NCBI GenBank assembly: GCA_009602725.1
Contig: WELB01000002.1
Span: 1,659,478-1,697,110 of the forward strand
Direction of reading: 5' to 3'
DNA from: Spirogloea muscicola
Lineage: Eukaryota > Streptophyta > Zygnematophyceae > Spirogloeales > Spirogloeaceae
DNA length: 37,633 bases
Below the pieces are notes generated by a model. It ran no database searches. It had not been told where the DNA came from and saw only the letters and a list, made by a program, of their open reading frames with translations. A program made the position numbers and the translations under genes. How positions within the stretch are numbered: the first letter of the stretch is position 1; each line of letters begins with the position of its first letter. Below, one piece after another: positions 25,701-37,365 of this stretch.

Positions 25701-26977
25701 ATTTGAGAAGGAGAGCCTCCTGTGAACGTGTGGAGCAGAGTACTAAGACCCTCCGCTTACTTGCTCAGACTCTCCAGGTCTGCATCCATATGCATTGAGA
25801 CCTGCACAGACATGCTTATCATGCTTGGCACCTTGGCTCGTACCAAGTGCACTGGACATTGTGATTTCATTTTCGCAAGCATGAAGGCAGCACATCAAGA
25901 GCACCTTGTTGCCTCTCACTGGTGCCTTCACCATTGCTCAAATCTGCAGAGAGCACACAGGCACTTGGACGCGCATTTCCCAGAATATGTTGATCGTTCG
26001 TTGTCTGTCATTGGGTACTGGGCTCATGTGGAGCTTGACCTCGCCAAGGACCTTGCCGCTGCACGAGGCGTTTGGGAGGAACTTATTAAGACCAGGTATA
26101 AGGGATCAAGCTCGAAATTAAGTAGCATATCTGCTAGTGATTTGTAGTGGTCCAGTAGACATTGCCATCAGATTTGAGTGAAATAAACAGCCTTGGATGG
26201 CAGGGGTTGGATGACGGAGGCCTGGCAGCAGTACATTGCAATGGAGGAGCGACTTGGCAATGTCAAGGATGTCCGGAGCCTCTACAAGCGCTGTTACAGT
26301 CGCCGGCTCGAGGGCTCCGGTACCGAGGTCTGCTCACATGCTGTTTGCTTTGCTCCACTGCAGCGCGGGCACACTTGATTCTGCCCTCAAGTACCTGATG
26401 GGATAACAATCAAAAACATCAATACCTGCTTTGACCTGCTTTGTCCTAACAGTCCTCGCACCTGTGCCTGCAGTACATATGTGCTGCTTGGGTGCGATCT
26501 GAGAGGGAGCACGGGTCTTTGCACGACTATGACGTCGCCATGCAGAAGGTAACCACAGCTTGGCTGCAGTTACTAGCGCTCAGCAGTCAGAAGTTCTATG
26601 AGATGCTGCAAGTGATAATGGTCAAGTAGGTTTCCACTTCAGTCCGCAGACTGTTCAGGTTCTTGGCACGCCCCCTCTCTTGACCAGGTGGGGCACAGGT
26701 TGAAGGAGGTCCGAGCTCTGCAGCAGCAGCAGGACATGAAGCAAACGGCTGCAGTTCCAGAGGTGCCCAAGTTGTCTGACGCTGACGGAAAGACACAATT
26801 CAGCACAAGAGAGTTGCAGTCAAAGAAGCGCAAGCCTGGCCTGGGTTCGACCCCCAGCGAGGGCCCCGCAAAACGGCGACGAGAGAATGCCACGCCAGGC
26901 AAGGGTAACGACCAGGCTGATGTGGAGTTGGAGAGGGAAGCGGAGAGCAGTGCCACCAGACCGCAGGTGCAGGAACC

Positions 26978-27011
<34 letters not shown>

Positions 27012-28171
27012 GAACAGCAGCAACAGCAGCAGCAGGAGGAGAGGCGTGTGTACACGGACAAGTGCACTGCGTTTGTCAAGAACATTGCGCACGAGGTTGG
27101 CACGGCATGCTCTGGCTTTGTCAGCAAGGGTCAAGAATTGAGCAGCTATGTCATTTTCACTTTCTTCAGCTAAGATCTGCTTGGTACATAACTCTGCCAC
27201 AAGCCAATCTAAGAGCTTCTGATGATATGACTGGCTCAGCTTGCACCTTGAGTCTAATGGAGAGCGAGGCAAATTTGCGTAGGCGACGGACGAGGACATA
27301 GTGGAGTGGTTTGGCCAATGTGGGCAAGTGAAGGAGGTGCGGCGAGGTCGGGACAAGAGCACCGGTCATTTGCGCGTAAGTCTTTCAAGCCACTCCCCGG
27401 CCGGGTTCGCGCTCAGGGCTGAGCATGACTTGCATCTCTCTAAGTTTCTGCCACTGTACTGATCGTCATGCAACACTTGCATCTCAGAGCTACAGCAGCT
27501 TGCTTTCATGCCTAATGATGGCAGCTGATCTGTTGTGCTCTGCCCCAACATGGTATCTACCCCAACAATTGGTGCAGGGCTTTGCATATGTCGAATTTGG
27601 GGATGAGGAGAGCCTCCAGGTGGCGCTGAGGAAGGACAAGGAGGAGCTACACGGCCGGCAGCTGAGCGTGCAGCTCTCTGCACCTCCCAAGGGCGGGCCT
27701 CCTGGTGCCGGCATTGGCCACAGAGGGGTCAGGGGCAGAGGGCGTGGCCAGCGCGGCCATGACCAAGGCAGAGGTGAGAATGCCTCTTGTTGCATGACAC
27801 CATGGAGCTTAACACGCACCTCATGTATGCATTGAGCTTTTGCAGTTTATTGTGCTCATGTTGTCTTGTGAGCCTTTCTTTCTCTTACCTCAAGTCACAT
27901 ACAGAGCTTGCCTTTACCTTGTGGGTGTTTAGGCCGACGAGACCGCGGCGGCGGGGGGCCGGTCATGCCTCCATCAGTGGCCCACCGGCGGGGCGGCCAC
28001 CTGAGCCTGACCGGCAGCAACACGTTCGCCACGCCGCGCAGCGTCACGCGACCGCTGGGTTGGGGCGGCGAGCAGCACGGGGGTGCAAAGAGGCTGCCGC
28101 CCGGTGGCGACGAGGCCCCCAAGTCCAACGACGACTTCCGCAAGATGCTCCAGAAGGGAGGCCAGGGCTAA
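22753..28171 (+). CDS. SART3: SART3/Prp24-like U4/U6 snRNP recycling factor
   Basis: It reassembles U4/U6 snRNP after splicing in the nucleus (family knowledge). Sixteen exons: 22753-23133, 23308-23441, 23718-23775, 23932-24135, 24287-24580, 24764-24898, 25032-25157, 25304-25348, 25670-25777, 25950-26095, 26204-26327, 26474-26548, 26688-27095, 27283-27375, 27578-27773, 27933-28171; phase closes at 921 aa. Residues ~20-95 are very acidic (Asp/Glu run). HAT repeats fill ~105-600, e.g. MWLEWAQDE, LWLQYTAYLD, AVRNCPWVGGLWSRYLLALE, GYWAHVELDLA. A basic region (SKKRKPG, AKRRRE; likely nuclear signals) and a poly-Gln tract precede one RRM: CTAFVKNIAHE, then RGFAYVEFGD (RNP1). The C-terminus SNDDFRKMLQKGGQG matches the LSm-interaction tail. 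Only one RRM is visible, against two in human SART3 and four in yeast Prp24. Intron 6 seems to use a GC donor. Confidence 0.93.
26979..27037 (+). repeat. CAG repeat coding polyglutamine in SART3-like gene
   Basis: About eighteen CAG/CAA triplets, interrupted by GAGGAA, encode two glutamine blocks between the basic region and the RRM. Length is likely variable between strains. It lies in a disordered linker and should not disturb the folded domains. Confidence 0.85.
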
Positions 28172-29149: not shown

Positions 29150-32100
29150 ATGGCGGAGGCGCAGGCGCTGGAGGCCATGGGGTTCCCGGCGGACCGCTGC
29201 AGCGCCGCGCTGCGCGCCACCGCCACGCTCGCCGACGCCGTCGAGCTCCTCCTGCGCTGGCAGGACGNGCCGCCGCCGCCGCCGCCGCAAGCGCCGCCGT
29301 TACAGCCGCTGTCAGGGAACCCGCAGCCGCAGCGCCAGCCGCAGGCGTCGTCGGACTCAGCCATGGACGCCGTGGTGCCGGATGCCGCGGCGCACGAGCG
29401 CCTGACCAGATACCGCGCCGCAAAGAAGCTGAAGCAGGTGCGAGGATGCCAGCGCCCGGCCGCCGGGCCTAACTTCTGCTGCACTCGGTGTTTCTTAGTG
29501 GCGGCCGAGCCAGCAGCGGCGTCGAATTGCTGGGACAGGACGTGCAGTGGGACGTGCTTGTGAATTGCTGGGACGGGACGTGCAGTGAGACGTACTGTGA
29601 GGAGGCAGTAATGTAACTGATGTTGGCTGCGCTGAGGCGCCTGTGCACTGCAGGAGAAGGAGGCGGAGCGCGCTCGCGTCAAGCGGCAGCTGCAGGAGGA
29701 CGCCGAGGACCGGCGGGCGCGCAGCATGCGGGTCAGCGCCTCTCCGGCACTGCAGAGCGTCTCTCACGATTTGTATGATAATTTATAACCGAAAATTAAA
29801 CACGGTGTAATGATAATTCATTTGTTGTGGGGCCTTTTGGCGCAGTGCGAGTGTGGTGGCTCTGTCACCCCGGAGCTGCAGCTCGCGGCGGCCAGCTTCA
29901 CAGCCACAGCGCAGCCTCTGCAGTCTCGGCAGGCTGTCGGGGACGGCATGGTGGCCCTCAGGGACACAAACGAAAGAGTGGACGCGCTCGGGTGGGAGGG
30001 ACGCAGCACCAGTCCTGCTGTAGTGGCCACTGCTCCTCCCAGTGTGCACCTCCAGATCCTCGGGCCGAGCGGCCGAAAGCTTCGCGCCTCGTTCCCAGCA
30101 GGTAAGTTTCGGGCGGTACCTCAGCCTGCACCGGCTGGCTGCAGAGACGGCCGGGCTTGGTGGACACCGGCGTAGCATTGCTGTAACCCGTCTGGACGCC
30201 ATGGTTGCAACACACGAAGGAATTCCTCGTGACTCCATGCAGCTATGACTAAGCAAGACCGGCTGACTCTATTTGCCCGAGCGCAGCAATCAATTCTCTC
30301 AGAGCCCCACCACTACGCTCAAGAGGCTCGTCCCAGTTGCCGCAGCCATACATCAGCTGGAAACCTGAGGCAAAGGCGCCCCCGCTTGCTTGCTGCAGAT
30401 GCCACCCTTCTGGACGTCCGTGTATTTGTCTTGCAAGCCTGGCGCGGCCAAGAGGGGGCCGCACTGGCTTCCTTCCCTCCCCCTGAGAGCTGGCCTCTGG
30501 GGCAAGCTTGCGCTGCGGTTGCTGCCAGCGGCAGCTCCCCCATGGATGGGAGGCCTGCGGGAGCCAGGGCCAGGCCGGTGAAGGCCTTCACGGGCCCATC
30601 GGCGTGCCCTGATGTCAACAGGTGAGCTCAATTGGTGCTGCATCACCACTGTGTCAAGCTTGGCCACCACCATATGTCCGCTGCCTGATTCAGGTGGCAG
30701 CCTGGTCAGTTCGTGCTGGCATCAGTATGGCTGCCTGCGCTTGCTACAACTTGCTGCAAGTTCCACTGCATAACAGCGGCCCGACAGCGTGCTCTTTTCG
30801 GGTGTGCTGCCAGAGAAGAGCAGCGGACTCTGCTGCGGCAGGCGCTGGAGCGTCACGAGCAGGAGACAGCACGAATCGTGGCAGAAGCCCAGGCCATGCG
30901 AGCTTCCGAGCAGGCGACTATGGCTCGGACAGACGCGCTTTCTCCCAGTGCAAGCAACGTCTTCTTCTTGGTGCTCGTGCCACGCAAGGAGTACTTTACA
31001 GGTGACTCCCTGAGTGGTCACATCGCTGGCCATTGCACATGCAGGGCAGTCTTCCGACAAGCTTGTCCCTACTGTTGTTGGAACAGTTCTTGATGGCAAT
31101 CCTGCATATACGTAACACAAGGAGTCAACATTGAGCCTTGTGAGCCACAACTGCCTTGTTCGTTGCAGAGGAGGCGATGACGACCACCCTGGCTGAAGCA
31201 GAATTGTGGCCGAGGGGGTCACTCGTGGTGCACATTCAGCAGGACGCTGCGCAAGCTGAAGATAGCATGCAGATTGATGTGGCACAACTCTCATCCAGAC
31301 CGCACGCTGTGCCTTATCCTGCCGGTGCTGGTCCTGGTCCCTCGATGCAGGCCATTGCCAGCTCGAGGCGGAGTCCGCGGCTGGCCGCTGGTAGTAGAAG
31401 CGCTGCTCCACAAGCCATGACTCGTGTCCAGCATGCTCACCAACCGGTGGGCCCTGGTTGGAGCGACCAGCAGGCTGCTGAGGCAGCTGGCGTGCCAACA
31501 GAATGTGCTGCTCGGCCTTTGAGTCAGGCTGCTGCGGCTGCTGCCGAGGCAAGGCTGCGAGGGAGCGCCTCTGGGCAGCCGCCAGTCCAAGCCCCGGTCG
31601 GCAGTCTGCCACCGGCCGTCACTCCCGCTCCAGTGCCAGTCCCAGGAGCGGCCTCCAATGCCAGCAGCCATGCTCGCGCTGCCCAGGGCAGGGCCCCCAT
31701 TGGGAGAGCCAGGAGGGTCGGGCGGCAGCTAACTGAGCAGCAGAGGGAGTTCCTGCGCGAGAGAGCCCTCCAGGCAGCAGCGCAGCGCGCGGAGGAGGCT
31801 GCGGAGATGCTGAGGGCGGGCCTCCCGGATGGGCCGCCTGACGGAGCAGAGGTGCAGCAGAGTGGAGCAGCCCAAGCTGTCGGGGCAGCGCAGGCGGTGC
31901 TGCTGGAGCCAGCTCCGCTGGGCTCGTTCGGCCCGGTACCGGAGGCCGGGTCAGCGAGGGAGATCCTTGGCAGCCTGCAGTCGGTGTTCATGCCTTGCGA
32001 AACGTTGGCCATGGATGCCGAGGTCAGCTCGGCCAATGATCAGCTTGCGGGCAGCCAGGCGCACGACGGGCAAGCTGGGCCAAGTCAGGGCGGCCCGCCT

Positions 32101-34410
32101 GACGCTCAGATGCGCTCACAGGCCCTTGCTGCTGCCGAGAGGCGATTAGCTGTGCCGCACCCGCATGCAGCCCTTGATGCACTTCCACAACAGATATCCG
32201 CTCATCAAGTTGGATCCAGTCTGCAACCTGGAAGCAGTTTGACAACCACGGTTGGTGAAGGTGCTCCGTTGCATCCGATTGACAGCCTTGTTCCCTCAGT
32301 GTCAGGCAATGGCAAAGCCAGAGACGCAGAGGACCAGCTGCCGAGTAGCACTCCAGGGCGAAGCGCAGCGTTGATGCAGCAGCTGCCTCAGCCCGCTGCA
32401 GCGAGGGGGGCTGATGTAGATGAGGTTCCCAGGTTGCTACCGCGGCAGCCCACAGGAGTGGCCCCTTGTGTACCTGCTCCCAATGGCACACTGTCACTGG
32501 CCAACAACCATGGGCTTGGTGCAGCACGAGTGCATGGTCAAGAAGCTGGGGCGTCAGAGCGGACCAGCTTGCTGAAGATCCGTCTGGAGGATGGATCTGT
32601 CATTTCACAGACCTTTGGTGCAGGTACTGCCCTTATTTGCTCGCAGATTGGCTCTTTGGCCCTTGTCTGACTCTGTGCATATATGCAGGTATTTGTTCCT
32701 TCATTTAGCTGTATTCGAGTTGCTGTTCTCTGGAGGTGAAAGAGGACTCCGCCTTGGCATCAGTGCTAATCACAGGAACTGGAGCAGTCAAGGCACACAT
32801 AGCTTTGCAAGATACCAGCAACCTAGAGCTTGATGTCAAGATAGTCCAAGCTGGTCATTCTGTCTTCGTTTCAAATCGAAATTGGCACTCCTCAACAGGT
32901 ACTACCCTTCAGATGGTTCGGGACTCTGTCACTCCCAGTGTGGGAGATCCTGATACATATGACGTGGTAATGGGCTACTTGCCTGCCAAGCACATGCTGT
33001 GCATCCCTTTGTCTGTGCTGCTTTTGACTTCAGTAGCATGTCCTTGTGCTAATGAAGTACATCCTCGCCGGTTTCCATTGTGCATCTCTGCTGGGTGACA
33101 GGTCGTTCCTTTTCTTGATCCCCACTGGATTAATGGCAATAACTTGGAGTTGACCCTTGATGAAGGCAAGAGATAGTGGAAGCTCAGCCTGGTGCCAAGC
33201 TAATAGTAGCCAGCCTGTACTGTACTGTGCACTTGTTTTGTTTAGCTGCCTCCTTAAGGCACCTCTAGATGGTGCGCCTGGCAAGTCTGGTGCAAGTAAC
33301 CATTACTCAGAAATATGTCTCTCTGTATCTTCCAGGATTCTCAACTTGAGGCTTGTGGGTGTATGTTTGGGGTTCCCGCTTATGTCCTCTTTCATGACTT
33401 GACTCTGATGTGTGATTCATTGCCAGCTGGCCTGGTTCCACAAGGAGCCGTTCATCTGCGACGACAGGCGGATCGCGGCGTTGTCACTCAGGGAAGAAGA
33501 GCCACTTCAAGAAGTAGGATGCAGCGACCTGCACAGCAAGGTCCTGTCGAAGGTGCGCCCATGGGGCACTTATTCTGAGCCTGATCTTTGAGAATAAGCA
33601 TGCATTGACCCCTTTGTATACTTGGTGGTCTTGTCAACCAGGGTCTGTCAAATTGTTTCCACTGACCAAGCAAGGGAGAGGCCTTTAGTGACAGGCCCAC
33701 TAGCTGATTGGGTGCTTATGTGCAGGGGAGAGTGAGATGCAGGCTATGAACTTTGACGCTACCACCTATGAGGAGCTCATGGTGCTGCAGGAACGACTTG
33801 GACGAGGTTCACACCCTGTTGCCGTGTCATCTCACTGGCTGCTCAGCAGCAACCCTCAATTGTCGCCTGTTTGCCACTTGACAGTCTCCAGCTTATGTGC
33901 AAAGCAGGCCCATCTGTGACATCTTGTTGTTCTCAACAAGCTGGCTGGCAGAATGATTTGAAACCCGTCTTGCCATTTGCAGTCACAGTTGGTGTGCCCG
34001 AGACGATGATTTCTGCACTGCCCAGCAGAATCATAGGCTGGCCTATGACCCATGGGACAGCTGACAGGTCAAACGATGTCACAGGAGGATGTCTCGGAAA
34101 GCCATGCCGCAAGTTGCACCAGGAGCTCCTTGCCATCCCTGTCAGGCATGAGCAATCAGGGAGGGTGCACGAGGGGGCACCACCTCAAGACCTGCGGCTT
34201 GGTGAAGAGGAAGTTGGTGCAGGTGGATTGCAGCCTGAGCTCATGGAGCAGCTAGACCGCTGCCTGGTGTGCATTGGCGAGATGGAGGTAGGTGAAGAGG
34301 TCACCACTCTCCCATGTCTGCACTACTACCACAGCAACTGCATATGTCAGTGGCTGCGGCAGAGCACAGTGTGCCCTGTTTGCAAATTCGACCTGCTTGC
34401 CAGCTCTTAG
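29150..34410 (+). CDS. UBA-UBX-(UBX-like)-RING-H2 protein, putative CDC48-linked E3 ubiquitin ligase
   Basis: Exons read: 29150-29437, 29654-29731, 29846-30101, 30399-30621, 30814-31001, 31169-32623, 32899-32966, 33427-33552, 33743-33806, 34068-34112, 34160-34410; phase closes at ~1013 aa. A further exon near 33102-33170 is possible. Residues 1-40 are a UBA domain (ALEAMGFPADRCSAALR). A charged helix follows (ERARVKRQLQEDAEDRRAR). UBX comes in two parts: VHLQILGPSGRKLRASFPA plus DATLLDVRVFVLQ, then, after about 110 inserted residues, FFLVLVPRKEYFT and TLAEAELWPRGSLVVHI; the usual p97-contact FPR is VPR. A ~450-residue Ala/Gln/Pro-rich linker leads to LLKIRLEDGSVISQTFGAG joined to TTLQMVRDSV, a second UBX-like start. 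TTYEELMVLQERLG precedes the RING-H2 finger (CLVC, CLHYYH, CPVC), as in BIG BROTHER-type ligases. UBA and RING would bind and transfer ubiquitin, UBX would dock CDC48. An N is at 29268. A two-gene alternative is not excluded. TGTAA lies ~115 bp after the stop. Confidence 0.78.
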
Positions 34411-36240
34411 ATGGGGGGCATATTGCCAGCTGCTGGACCTCAAGGGCGCCACGCCATGTCTGTGGTATTTGCTGCGTGCATAAGTCACGTCAGCTTGTAT
34501 ATAATCCCAGGTGTTATTGGCAAGTGTAACCACAGTGGGCACTGCAATGCTCGCACCAACAGGCGCAAATGCCAGGGGCGGATGACCTAGAAGTCTTGAT
34601 TGGCCACAGACTTAGGCAAGTCGAGCTGTGCTGCTACTTTCACTAACCGGAGTAAGTCTAAGTGGGTAAGGGGACCTCCAGCACATCCAGGCAGGAGGCT
34701 GTCAAGATGCTGCCAAGTAAGCAGTATCATTTGAGTCTCTCAGGCTAATCTTGCACAACACAAACCAATAACATCACAATACGACTGCAGTCATCATGAC
34801 ATGGCAGATTGCGTGGTATATATTCGTGTTCCATTGAAGTAGCTTACTCCATTGGGCGGTTGCCTTGACGGTACGGGACCTGTATACTGCCTTGTTGTAC
34901 TGCTGGAAGATGGCGAGCAGGGAATGGCAAGTAGTGCAGTGCTCGAGGCACTGAAGCTCGAACAGGCTTCACTGTGGTCGTCGAGGGCGTCACACCTGAC
35001 ATTAAACACCAAGGACAAAAGTGCGCTCTACCAATCACCAAGTATAAAAGTGAGTTCTGCGTCGCCGTTGAATGAATATGACGGCATAATCATGAGAATA
35101 CACGTATTGGGTGACCATTTGATGATTACTGATATTTGATGGAAGTGGGTACTTGGAAACAGTGAGTGGATAGGCTGCTGCTCCTGTCAAGGGTCATCTG
35201 CTAGGTCCAATGGATGAACCTGCAATGTTGTGCCGTATGGCTGTCAACTTCAGTGAAAGCAAGGGGCCATCTCAGCATGTTAAAGACCTTGATATCTGCT
35301 ATTTGAAAACTGGGTTGCTTGACCTGTTACTTGATGAAGTGTTCAATGAGGTTCTATTCAATTCCTGACTTCTTCTGTCATCAGTTGGGCTGGCAGCTTA
35401 CCGACAAGAATGTCTATTTATCAGCTTTGTACTTGTCTTGTGGAGAGGTCTCGGTCTTCGGTAAATCACAGCAGAAGGGAAGTTGTTAAATATAATTCAG
35501 AGCATGCCAGAAACTGGCCCTTAGAATGGCTGCTTCCATCTGCAGATTGCACCGCCAGCTTATATTAGGGGTTGTATGTCGTTCTTCAACAATGAGAGTG
35601 CAACAAGGACCCAAACGCCACGCTCCTTCCTTATTTGCCCTTTTCCTTAATGATAAGCGCACGAACACAGCAAGCTCGTTTGACTCCAGCACAGCTGAAA
35701 CAGTATCGTGGTTACTGTGGCCCAGTCACGTATCAACAACTGCCAACCAGGTCAATGCATTTTGTAGGGCTGCACAATGCTAGCACTCATGTCAGTGGAC
35801 CTTATGGCAGATGGTGCCAATTGCATCTGACCTGTTGCTCGTACTCCAAGGGAATTGGAACACATAAGTCTCGCATACACGATCAAGGGGAATGTAGGAA
35901 GTTTGACGTGCAACTCCTGCCTTCATAACGAGGCAGAATCTCGTGTGGCCTTCACGTTGAGAATACGTTGCAACTCTACCTGGTCTCTGTGTCACTGCAA
36001 CCGGGCTGCTACAGATCATGCCGCTTGTGGAAGTGTCAGGTGGTGCTCGTGCCACATCTGTAATGGTGTTTTGGAACAAGGCCAAGACCTTGTTCCAGAA
36101 AAGAGCGGCTCCCATTACACGACACCTTTTCCTGACCTCAACTGTTCTGCATCACACCAGGCTTACTGGTTCCAAGTGGCTCTTGCTCTTCCATGTACGA
36201 CCTTCTAACTATGGCGCACACGAAACTGGAAGAGTGAAAG
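34411..36240. other. Intergenic, no supported gene
   Basis: After a possible TGTAA polyadenylation signal at 34525-34529 the sequence holds only short open frames on both strands with no domains, splice-linked partners or RNA genes I can recognise. No hairpin repeat copy was noticed here until about 36255. Confidence 0.4.
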
Positions 36241-36254
36241 AGGAAAAGACTTTC

Positions 36255-37030
36255 ACAATTGGAGGGCAACGGCTGTGATTGGCCAGCCCAGAACGATGAA
36301 TGATAAAAGGGGCCAGAGAAGCGCTAAAGCACACAGCGACTCGAGTGGCCACTGGGTGCTCAGTATTCCCTGTTGAAGCAAGCGCGGCCAGATTAACTGG
36401 TGGCTGGGAGAGGCCAGCCCAAAGGAATGGACAAGGTCTGAAGGAGCCGGAGTGCTGAAGGACTGACCTGTTGAGCAGCCGCAGGTCAGAGAAACTAGTC
36501 TCCAGCTTGCGGGTCCCCCTGTCTTGCTAGTTTTTCTTTATTGCTTCCCCTGGCCCCTTCTCGTCCTTTGTTCATTCTTGTTTGGGCTGGCTTTTCCAGC
36601 CCCTATCCTCAAAGAAAGAAAATGCTCGCCCATAGAGAAGAGAGGCTGGCAAAGCCAGCTGGCAAATCCTCAATGGGCGAGCCCTTCTGTCTTGTCTACA
36701 GATGCAGCGCAGATGCAGCGCATTGTGGCATTGTCACGCGAACCCAGTCTCTCTGACCTGAGGCTGCATAGCAGGGGTTACTGAGTGCTTCGTAGCTGCT
36801 TCGTTTCTTTTTTGTGCTTGTTGTTCTTCGTACTTCCCCTGGCCCCTTCTCGTCCTTGGATCATTCTTTTTGGGCTAGCTTTTTGCAGCCGCTATCCTCA
36901 ATGGGCGAGCCCTTCATCAATGTGGCATAGTCCTCTGCAGCGATACTGAGCAGGCGAGAAGCAAGCGCGGCCAGATTGACTGGTGGCTGAGAGAGGCCAG
37001 CCCAGAGGAATGGACAAGGTCTGAAGGAGC
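36255..37030. repeat. Cluster of hairpin repeats and a retroelement-like tail
   Basis: Minus-oriented copies are at about 36265-36310, 36382-36445 and 36964-37030; plus-oriented copies at about 36560-36625 (GGGCTGGCTTTTCCAGCCCC) and 36860-36915 (degenerate). The 36382 and 36964 copies share about 60 bp almost identically, starting AGCGCGGCCAGATT and running through GGACAAGGTCTGAAGGAGC. At 36745-36784 a frame ends PSLSDLRLHSRGY and TGA, the tail seen at 4392-4456 and elsewhere. This is repeat DNA without host genes. Confidence 0.65.
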
Positions 37031-37260: not shown

Positions 37261-37365
37261 AAGCGCGGCCAGATTAACTGGTGGCTGGGAGAGGCCAGCC
37301 CAAAAGAATGGACAAGGTCCTCAGCACTCCGGCTCCTTCAGACCTTGTCCATTCCTTTGGGCTCC
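37261..37365. repeat. Inverted pair of hairpin repeats
   Basis: A minus-oriented copy (AGCGCGGCCAGATTAACTGG through AAAAGAATGGACAAGGTC) meets a plus-oriented copy (GACCTTGTCCATTCCTTTGG) across a spacer of about 21 nt. The arms match perfectly for 13-14 bp and near-perfectly for about 18 bp, so the junction can form a large hairpin. Confidence 0.75.

Follow-up and report, generated by a model that had tools for sequence, protein, structure and literature searches.

A candidate gene with UBA-like, UBX and RING-H2 modules

The window analysed here is a stretch of 37,633 nucleotides of Spirogloea muscicola DNA (G000:C2:1659478-1697110), and it holds a candidate gene whose predicted product combines UBX domains, as found in adaptors of the unfoldase CDC48 (p97), with a RING-H2 finger, as found in ubiquitin ligases (E3s). 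The model built from the sequence begins with an ATG at 29150 (context CGGCAGCC followed by ATGG) and ends with a stop at 34410. The predicted protein contains, in order, a UBA-like domain, a basic segment, a first UBX domain (UBX1) with a long insert, a linker of ∼440 residues, a second UBX-like module (UBX2), a YEELxxLxERLG segment and a RING-H2 finger. The gene and its exons are as follows.

29150-34410, + strand: candidate gene, 11 exons, 1091 residues (model from the sequence)
29150-29437, + strand: exon 1, with the ATG, the UBA-like domain (residues 4-37, 29159-29260), a Pro-rich run and the beginning of the basic segment
29654-29731, + strand: exon 2, a probably helical basic segment, EKEAERARVKRQLQEDAEDRRARS
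29846-30101, + strand: exon 3, a spacer and then the first UBX1 strands, LQILGPSGRKLRASFPA
30399-30621, + strand: exon 4, the UBX1 helix DATLLDVRVFVLQAW and the beginning of the ∼108-residue insert
30814-31001, + strand: exon 5, the remainder of the insert and the UBX1 strand with the VPRKEYF loop
31169-32623, + strand: exon 6, 1455 nucleotides, with the end of UBX1, the ∼440-residue linker and the first UBX2 beta hairpin, LLKIRLEDGSVISQTFGA
32899-33032, + strand: exon 7, with GTTLQMVRDSV as the UBX2 helix; its start has good support and its end is provisional
33336-33354, + strand: exon 8, a provisional micro-exon (DSQLEAS) with a pyrimidine-rich acceptor, CTCTCTGTATCTTCCAG, read directly
33427-33552, + strand: exon 9, with GLVPQGAVHLR as the proposed final UBX2 strand (at best modestly supported by the profile), then a basic linker
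33726-33806, + strand: exon 10, the YEELMVLQERLGR segment
33983-34410, + strand: exon 11, the RING-H2 finger (34258-34386) and the stop

Hidden Markov model searches of the spliced protein placed two of the domains named in the original prediction, RING (zf-RING_2) and UBX, above the curated Pfam cut-offs (27.3 and 21 bits), but the UBA families fell below theirs (27 bits for UBA_7 and 22.4 for UBA). The zf-RING_2 match scores 43.5 bits on the 1091-residue protein and covers positions 2-44 of 44. All eight zinc ligands of a RING-H2 finger (C3H2C3) can be read directly in CLVC, LPCLHYYHSNC and CPVC, and the region matches the solved E3s RNF165, ARK2C, Arkadia and RLIM in the PDB with E values from 2e-12 to 8e-11. 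The L after the first Cys, the W of QWL, the P of CPVC and the K after the last Cys presumably occupy positions of ubiquitin-conjugating enzyme (E2) contact and the linchpin, and the RING is expected to bind an E2. A search of NCBIfam with the RING part returned only a far sub-threshold match to rad18, and an AlphaFold2 model of the RING exon from three sequences was uninformative (mean predicted local distance difference test score, pLDDT, 30.3). The lead-in of the form YEELxxLxERLG that had been claimed for this RING is indeed present, as the YEELMVLQERLGR segment of exon 10. At the other end of the protein, the UBA-like domain includes a directly readable MGF and may bind ubiquitin; UBA_7 scores 15.8 bits there when the whole protein is searched, and a PDB search with the N-terminal 127 residues gave one chance-like match (E 0.19).

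A TGTAA element serves as polyadenylation signal in green algae. The TGTAA at 34525 was dropped as evidence for the gene end, as it was not found in the aligned part of two further copies of the gene (described below), which have other TGTAA sites.

Three diverged copies of the gene

We searched the genome to which the window belongs (153 Mb in 471 contigs), and the zf-RING_2 profile returned the RING of the window together with two equal-scoring matches, on contigs C152 and C118 (49.5 bits each). The same exons are found in the same order at both loci (L001 on C152, L002 on C118), with DNA identity to the window of 90.8% for L001 and 91.6% for L002, and of 92.8% between the two, over an aligned region that includes flanks. 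Collinearity extends into the flanking DNA on the side of the upstream gene (best pieces 86.7 and 89.6% identical), which argues that the gene is not an assembly artefact.

Gaps fall mostly where the model places introns: the three-copy alignment has 2 gap runs in 3291 exon columns versus 39 in 2014 intron columns. The splice dinucleotides GT/AG are kept at every model junction in all three copies, and exon 6 is 1455 nucleotides long in each, with a gap-free protein alignment. A conserved open frame runs as far as the exon 6-7 junction and again from exon 9 on, and all exons would belong to one transcript. The frame is open throughout in the window and in L001, and in L002 once exon 1 is left out. 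In L002, exon 1 has 289 nucleotides and breaks the frame, with an N beside it in a GC-rich stretch. The window has a single N at 29269, in the GC-rich Pro-coding run of exon 1, and a matching N occurs in both other copies; that the N sits in the same GC-rich run in all three suggests a sequencing gap.

The gene is under overall purifying selection: the ratio of nonsynonymous to synonymous substitution rates (dN/dS) in pairwise comparisons of the copies is 0.31-0.36 over 1086-1090 codons, with dS of 0.11-0.14. Residues identical in the three copies amount to 32 of 32 comparable positions in the UBA-like domain (4-37), 46 of 47 in the basic segment (76-122) and 45 of 45 in the RING (1041-1085), while two stretches of the linker are less conserved (140/177 and 194/223). 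Within exon 9, residues 875-897 are all identical (23/23).

Exon-by-exon genome searches, which could have missed diverged relatives, gave 50 matches for a UBX2-RING query: 15 at the three loci, and 35 elsewhere that align with its RING end alone. An N-terminal query, run in the same way, gave 20 matches, 19 at the three loci and one weak (E 0.07). A scan of viral contigs with the RING exon found no relative. There are six matches to the UBX family in the genome; of two loci inspected, one is UAS-UBX-like and the other thioredoxin-like with a UBX, as judged by reading. For several families (UBX, some RINGs, CDC48_N) the genome has sets of three similarly scoring matches on separate contigs, and it looks like that of a triploid or hybrid with three diverged subgenomes. 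Its 68 matches to chlorophyll a/b-binding proteins fit a photosynthetic organism, while the RuBisCO large subunit gave no match.

Two features of the neighbourhood were noted. The upstream gene (26600-28170 in the window), which we take to resemble SART3, ends with KSNDDFRKMLQKGGQG and has an RRM-like stretch; both other copies show this region in collinear order. Downstream of the candidate gene lie two occurrences of a short dispersed repeat (93-94% identical), at 36380-36445 and 37261-37319, and a third is found in L004 (4668-4733), near another UBX gene.

The UBX modules and candidate CDC48-docking motifs

UBX scores 42.9 bits on the whole protein, in two stretches. UBX1 spans exons 3-6 and reaches 31.4 bits as an isolated domain with its insert removed; it aligns with the UBX chains 2kxj (UBX domain-containing protein 4, E 0.0008) and 2dzk (protein 2, E 0.0014) of the PDB. 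The insert of ∼108 residues lies between the helix and the third strand (30443-30958), and 93 of its 108 residues are identical in the three copies. With three alternative versions of exon 7, isolated UBX2 scores 25.4, 25.7 and 25.9 bits, in a match that covers only the first half of the profile. The claim that a single 485-codon exon (31169-32623) ties the two modules together holds with exact boundaries: this exon starts with the last UBX1 strands and ends with the first UBX2 hairpin, which AlphaFold2 also models as a beta hairpin, and thus shares one UBX fold with the neighbouring exons on each side.

It had also been argued that all eleven exons close in phase to one frame of ∼1013 residues. 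The model does give an 11-exon open frame, but of 1091 residues, and the phase closure itself is weak evidence. Allowing 0 to 3 exons in the interval 32623-33427, introns no shorter than 45 bases and GT/AG sites kept in the three copies, we obtained 8,824 chains that stay open into exon 9 in all three copies. Because phase alone proves so little, every one of the 8,824 chains was scored against a UBX profile made from eight UBX sequences, six of them PDB rows and two taken from this genome. Chains using the acceptor at 32899 reach up to 23.3 bits, while any other first acceptor reaches 16.0 at most, and the starts at 32709, 32736, 32743, 32745 and others were rejected on this score. The exon 6-7 junction therefore lies inside UBX2. 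The end of exon 7 may be at 32963, 32966, 33032 or 33056. The top chain (32899-32963, 33058-33094, 33200-33226; 23.3 bits) is not the one used in the model. The segment 33102-33175 was treated as intron, as the differences between copies looked nonsynonymous by eye.

The linker adds a further point in favour of CDC48 docking that was absent from the original prediction. Among the motifs named in a review (PMC5389986) for docking on the p97 N domain is the VIM motif, with consensus RX5AAX2R (PMC5468458). Three matches to this consensus are found in each copy, all in exon 6 (L002 was scanned without exon 1).

31756-31788, + strand: VIM-type motif RERALQAAAQR, residues 541-551, within the only long predicted helix of the linker (534-561); invariant in the three copies
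32113-32145, + strand: VIM-type motif RSQALAAAERR, followed by L, residues 660-670, fitting the strict pattern Rx2h3AAx2Rh; invariant in the three copies
31366-31398, + strand: third RX5AAX2R match, RRSPRLAAGSR, residues 411-421, which holds P, G and S and is probably due to chance

In shuffles of exon 6, a strict VIM arises in a fraction of 0.0016 (global) or 0.0026 (local) and at least three loose VIMs in 0.0001 (global) or 0.0004 (local), statistics that were computed after the fact for one motif among three searched (VIM, SHP and VBM). As controls, we used mechanical open reading frames of at least 80 residues from elsewhere in the window and from loci L003 and L004; these contain 7 loose and 1 strict VIM in 27,057 residues, or 0.125 loose and 0.018 strict per 485 residues. 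AlphaFold2, run on exon 6 with three sequences, places the motif at 541 in the helix 534-561 (block pLDDT 51-65). CDC48 itself is present in the genome, with six matches to CDC48_N, three of them above the cut-off, on three contigs. The UBX modules and the VIM-type motifs of the linker may bind CDC48.

One gene, its alternatives and its known relatives

With respect to the UBX and RING modules, the claim that a single gene joins these domains remains the best reading of the three diverged copies; its UBA part is sub-threshold. The fusion is probably real and maintained, to judge from the sequences compared. The reading we favour, and place just on the probable side, is that of one gene, present once on each of three contigs, in which a UBA-UBX adaptor carries as C-terminal extension both a second UBX-like module and a catalytic RING-H2 finger, so that tagging and delivery to CDC48 would be coupled in cis. 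The likeliest role would be that of an E3 that operates in the manner of gp78, with CDC48 docking of its own, on the framework of a UBA-UBX adaptor. The RING would attach ubiquitin to a client bound by the protein, and the UBA-like domain at the N-terminus would keep hold of the chain; docking on the N domain of CDC48 would fall to the UBX domains and to VIM-type helices of the flexible linker. The protein would in this way recruit CDC48 and ubiquitylate its clients, and client tagging would be coupled in cis with delivery to the unfoldase. A bolder version is conceivable but doubtful: a self-contained tag-and-unfold protein would dock on CDC48 at several sites simultaneously (both UBX modules and one or two VIM helices) and might link adjacent N domains of the hexamer, its client being ubiquitylated while held at the pore.

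A number of observations count against the one-gene, CDC48-docking reading. The UBA-like start stays under the Pfam cut-offs even as an isolated 46-mer (UBA_7 23.2 of 27 bits, UBA 19.8 of 22.4). In UBX2, the provisional chain (32899-33032 and 33336-33354) ranks 20th of 8,824 with 21.0 bits; its alignment stops at profile position 50 of 74, and exons 8-9 add 0.1 bit (19.9 versus 19.8). For a hand-shortened UBX2, a shuffled tail equals the real score in 56 of 2000 trials and a shuffled GYLPAKHM stretch in 448 of 2000. The end of the profile alignment and these shuffles leave the first half of UBX2 with good support and its second half with weak support; in addition, a single-sequence phmmer search of the PDB with UBX2, up to E 10, brought up no UBX chain. 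In exon 10 the window differs from either other copy by 4 nonsynonymous changes and no synonymous one, and dN/dS rises to 0.83 in exon 7 and, between L001 and L002, is 0.82 in exon 11, although these exon-wise values come from small, uneven numbers and are too noisy for choosing between models of exons 7 and 8. In the linker, one loose VIM is not rare (0.08 of global and 0.13 of local exon 6 shuffles), the strict motif at 660 is not predicted to be helical, the mean pLDDT of exon 6 is 36.9, SHP and VBM occur in none of the three copies by the patterns used, and a PDB search with two linker peptides gave no match. Lastly, neither UBX keeps the complete published p97-binding signature R...FPR (PMC5389986): UBX1 has L...VPR and UBX2 has R...LPA in the provisional exon 7, where the R sits in LKIRL and LPA falls in the loop if the exon extends that far.

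The incomplete signatures are an argument that this is one gene whose UBX modules no longer bind CDC48 and are ubiquitin-like folds used by an ordinary RING-H2 ligase for scaffolding or for recognising substrates, and the insert between helix and third strand of UBX1 and the poorly supported second half of UBX2 would fit with such a change. We nevertheless consider this unlikely. FPR is not strictly required, since OTU1 binds p97 with a YPP loop (PMC5389986) and plant PUX5 has FPPK at the FPR position (alignment row), and the VIM-type motifs of the linker also count against it. That the fusion is decaying or mis-assembled and yields no functional product is very improbable: the out-of-frame exon 1 of L002 would suggest it, but this exon lies beside the N that points to a sequencing gap in all three copies, overall dN/dS is well under 1, and the RING and the UBA-like region are invariant across copies.

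The link between UBX2 and the RING depends on exons 9 and 10, where no domain crosses the junction, while exon 6 joins UBX1 and UBX2 in frame. Two adjacent genes could therefore be envisaged, a UBA-UBX-(UBX) adaptor that reads past the exon 9 donor and a separate YEEL-RING-H2 ligase that starts from an exon 10 ATG. This alternative keeps some probability because a frame continued beyond 33552 runs into a stop in each of the three copies, 7 codons downstream of the split codon, and because exon 10 of each copy has at least one in-frame ATG; the junction itself falls in a linker. We judge it quite improbable, however, for ∼160 bases (33579-33736 in the window) would have to accommodate a 3′ end, a promoter and a 5′ untranslated region. 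Moreover, the donor GAAG/GTGCGC and the acceptor TGTGCAG/G are kept in matching phase in all three copies, and exon 9 beyond the UBX is still conserved in frame (residues 898-923, 25/26).

If the one-gene reading is correct, a natural fusion of this kind would point to an adaptor and a ligase that share their clients, and with it one could test in compact form whether ubiquitylation and the recruitment of CDC48 gain from being in cis. No UBX-RING fusion was found in the literature by title or beginning of abstract among open-licence papers, so that one may nonetheless be in print. The plant RING-H2 ligases with a YEEL...ERxG segment are of the BIG BROTHER/MBR type, and the present protein shares with them the YEELMVLQERLGRVTVG lead-in followed by RING-H2; we know of no described member with a UBX.

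For the N-terminal part, known counterparts are the UBA-UBX proteins (SAKS1/UBXN1, UBXD7, UBXD8 and FAF1), which co-precipitate with p97-UFD1-NPL4 and ubiquitin conjugates (PMC5389986). The present protein has the same UBA-like domain followed by UBX, but additionally a second UBX-like module and a RING-H2 finger, and differs in the long insert and L...VPR of UBX1 and in its sub-threshold UBA. A VIM and a UBX are combined in one p97 adaptor, UBXD1/UBXN6 (PMC5468458), which also has a PUB (PMC5389986). The present protein shares with it the combination of VIM-type motifs and UBX, and differs from it with respect to the PUB. To our knowledge, UBXD1/UBXN6 has no RING.

E3s with p97 docking of their own are already described, namely gp78, HRD1 and HOIP (PMC5389986). 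HOIP is an E3 with a p97-binding PUB module in cis (PMC5389986), and gp78/AMFR combines E3 activity with p97 docking by a VIM on one chain (PMC5389986, PMC5468458); the title of one paper also gives gp78 a ubiquitin-binding CUE domain. HOIP uses a PUB domain where the present protein has UBX with RING-H2. A working analogue, although not a claimed homologue, is gp78, with an E3, a ubiquitin-binding-type domain and p97 docking on one chain. HOIP is a RING-between-RING (RBR) ligase, and gp78 is the membrane-bound RING-CUE-VIM ligase of endoplasmic-reticulum-associated degradation. The CUE of gp78 is replaced here by a UBA-like domain, and UBX modules stand beside the VIM-type motifs. The candidate protein thus looks like a variant of the ligases with their own CDC48 docking, in which the UBX as docking domain is the unusual element.

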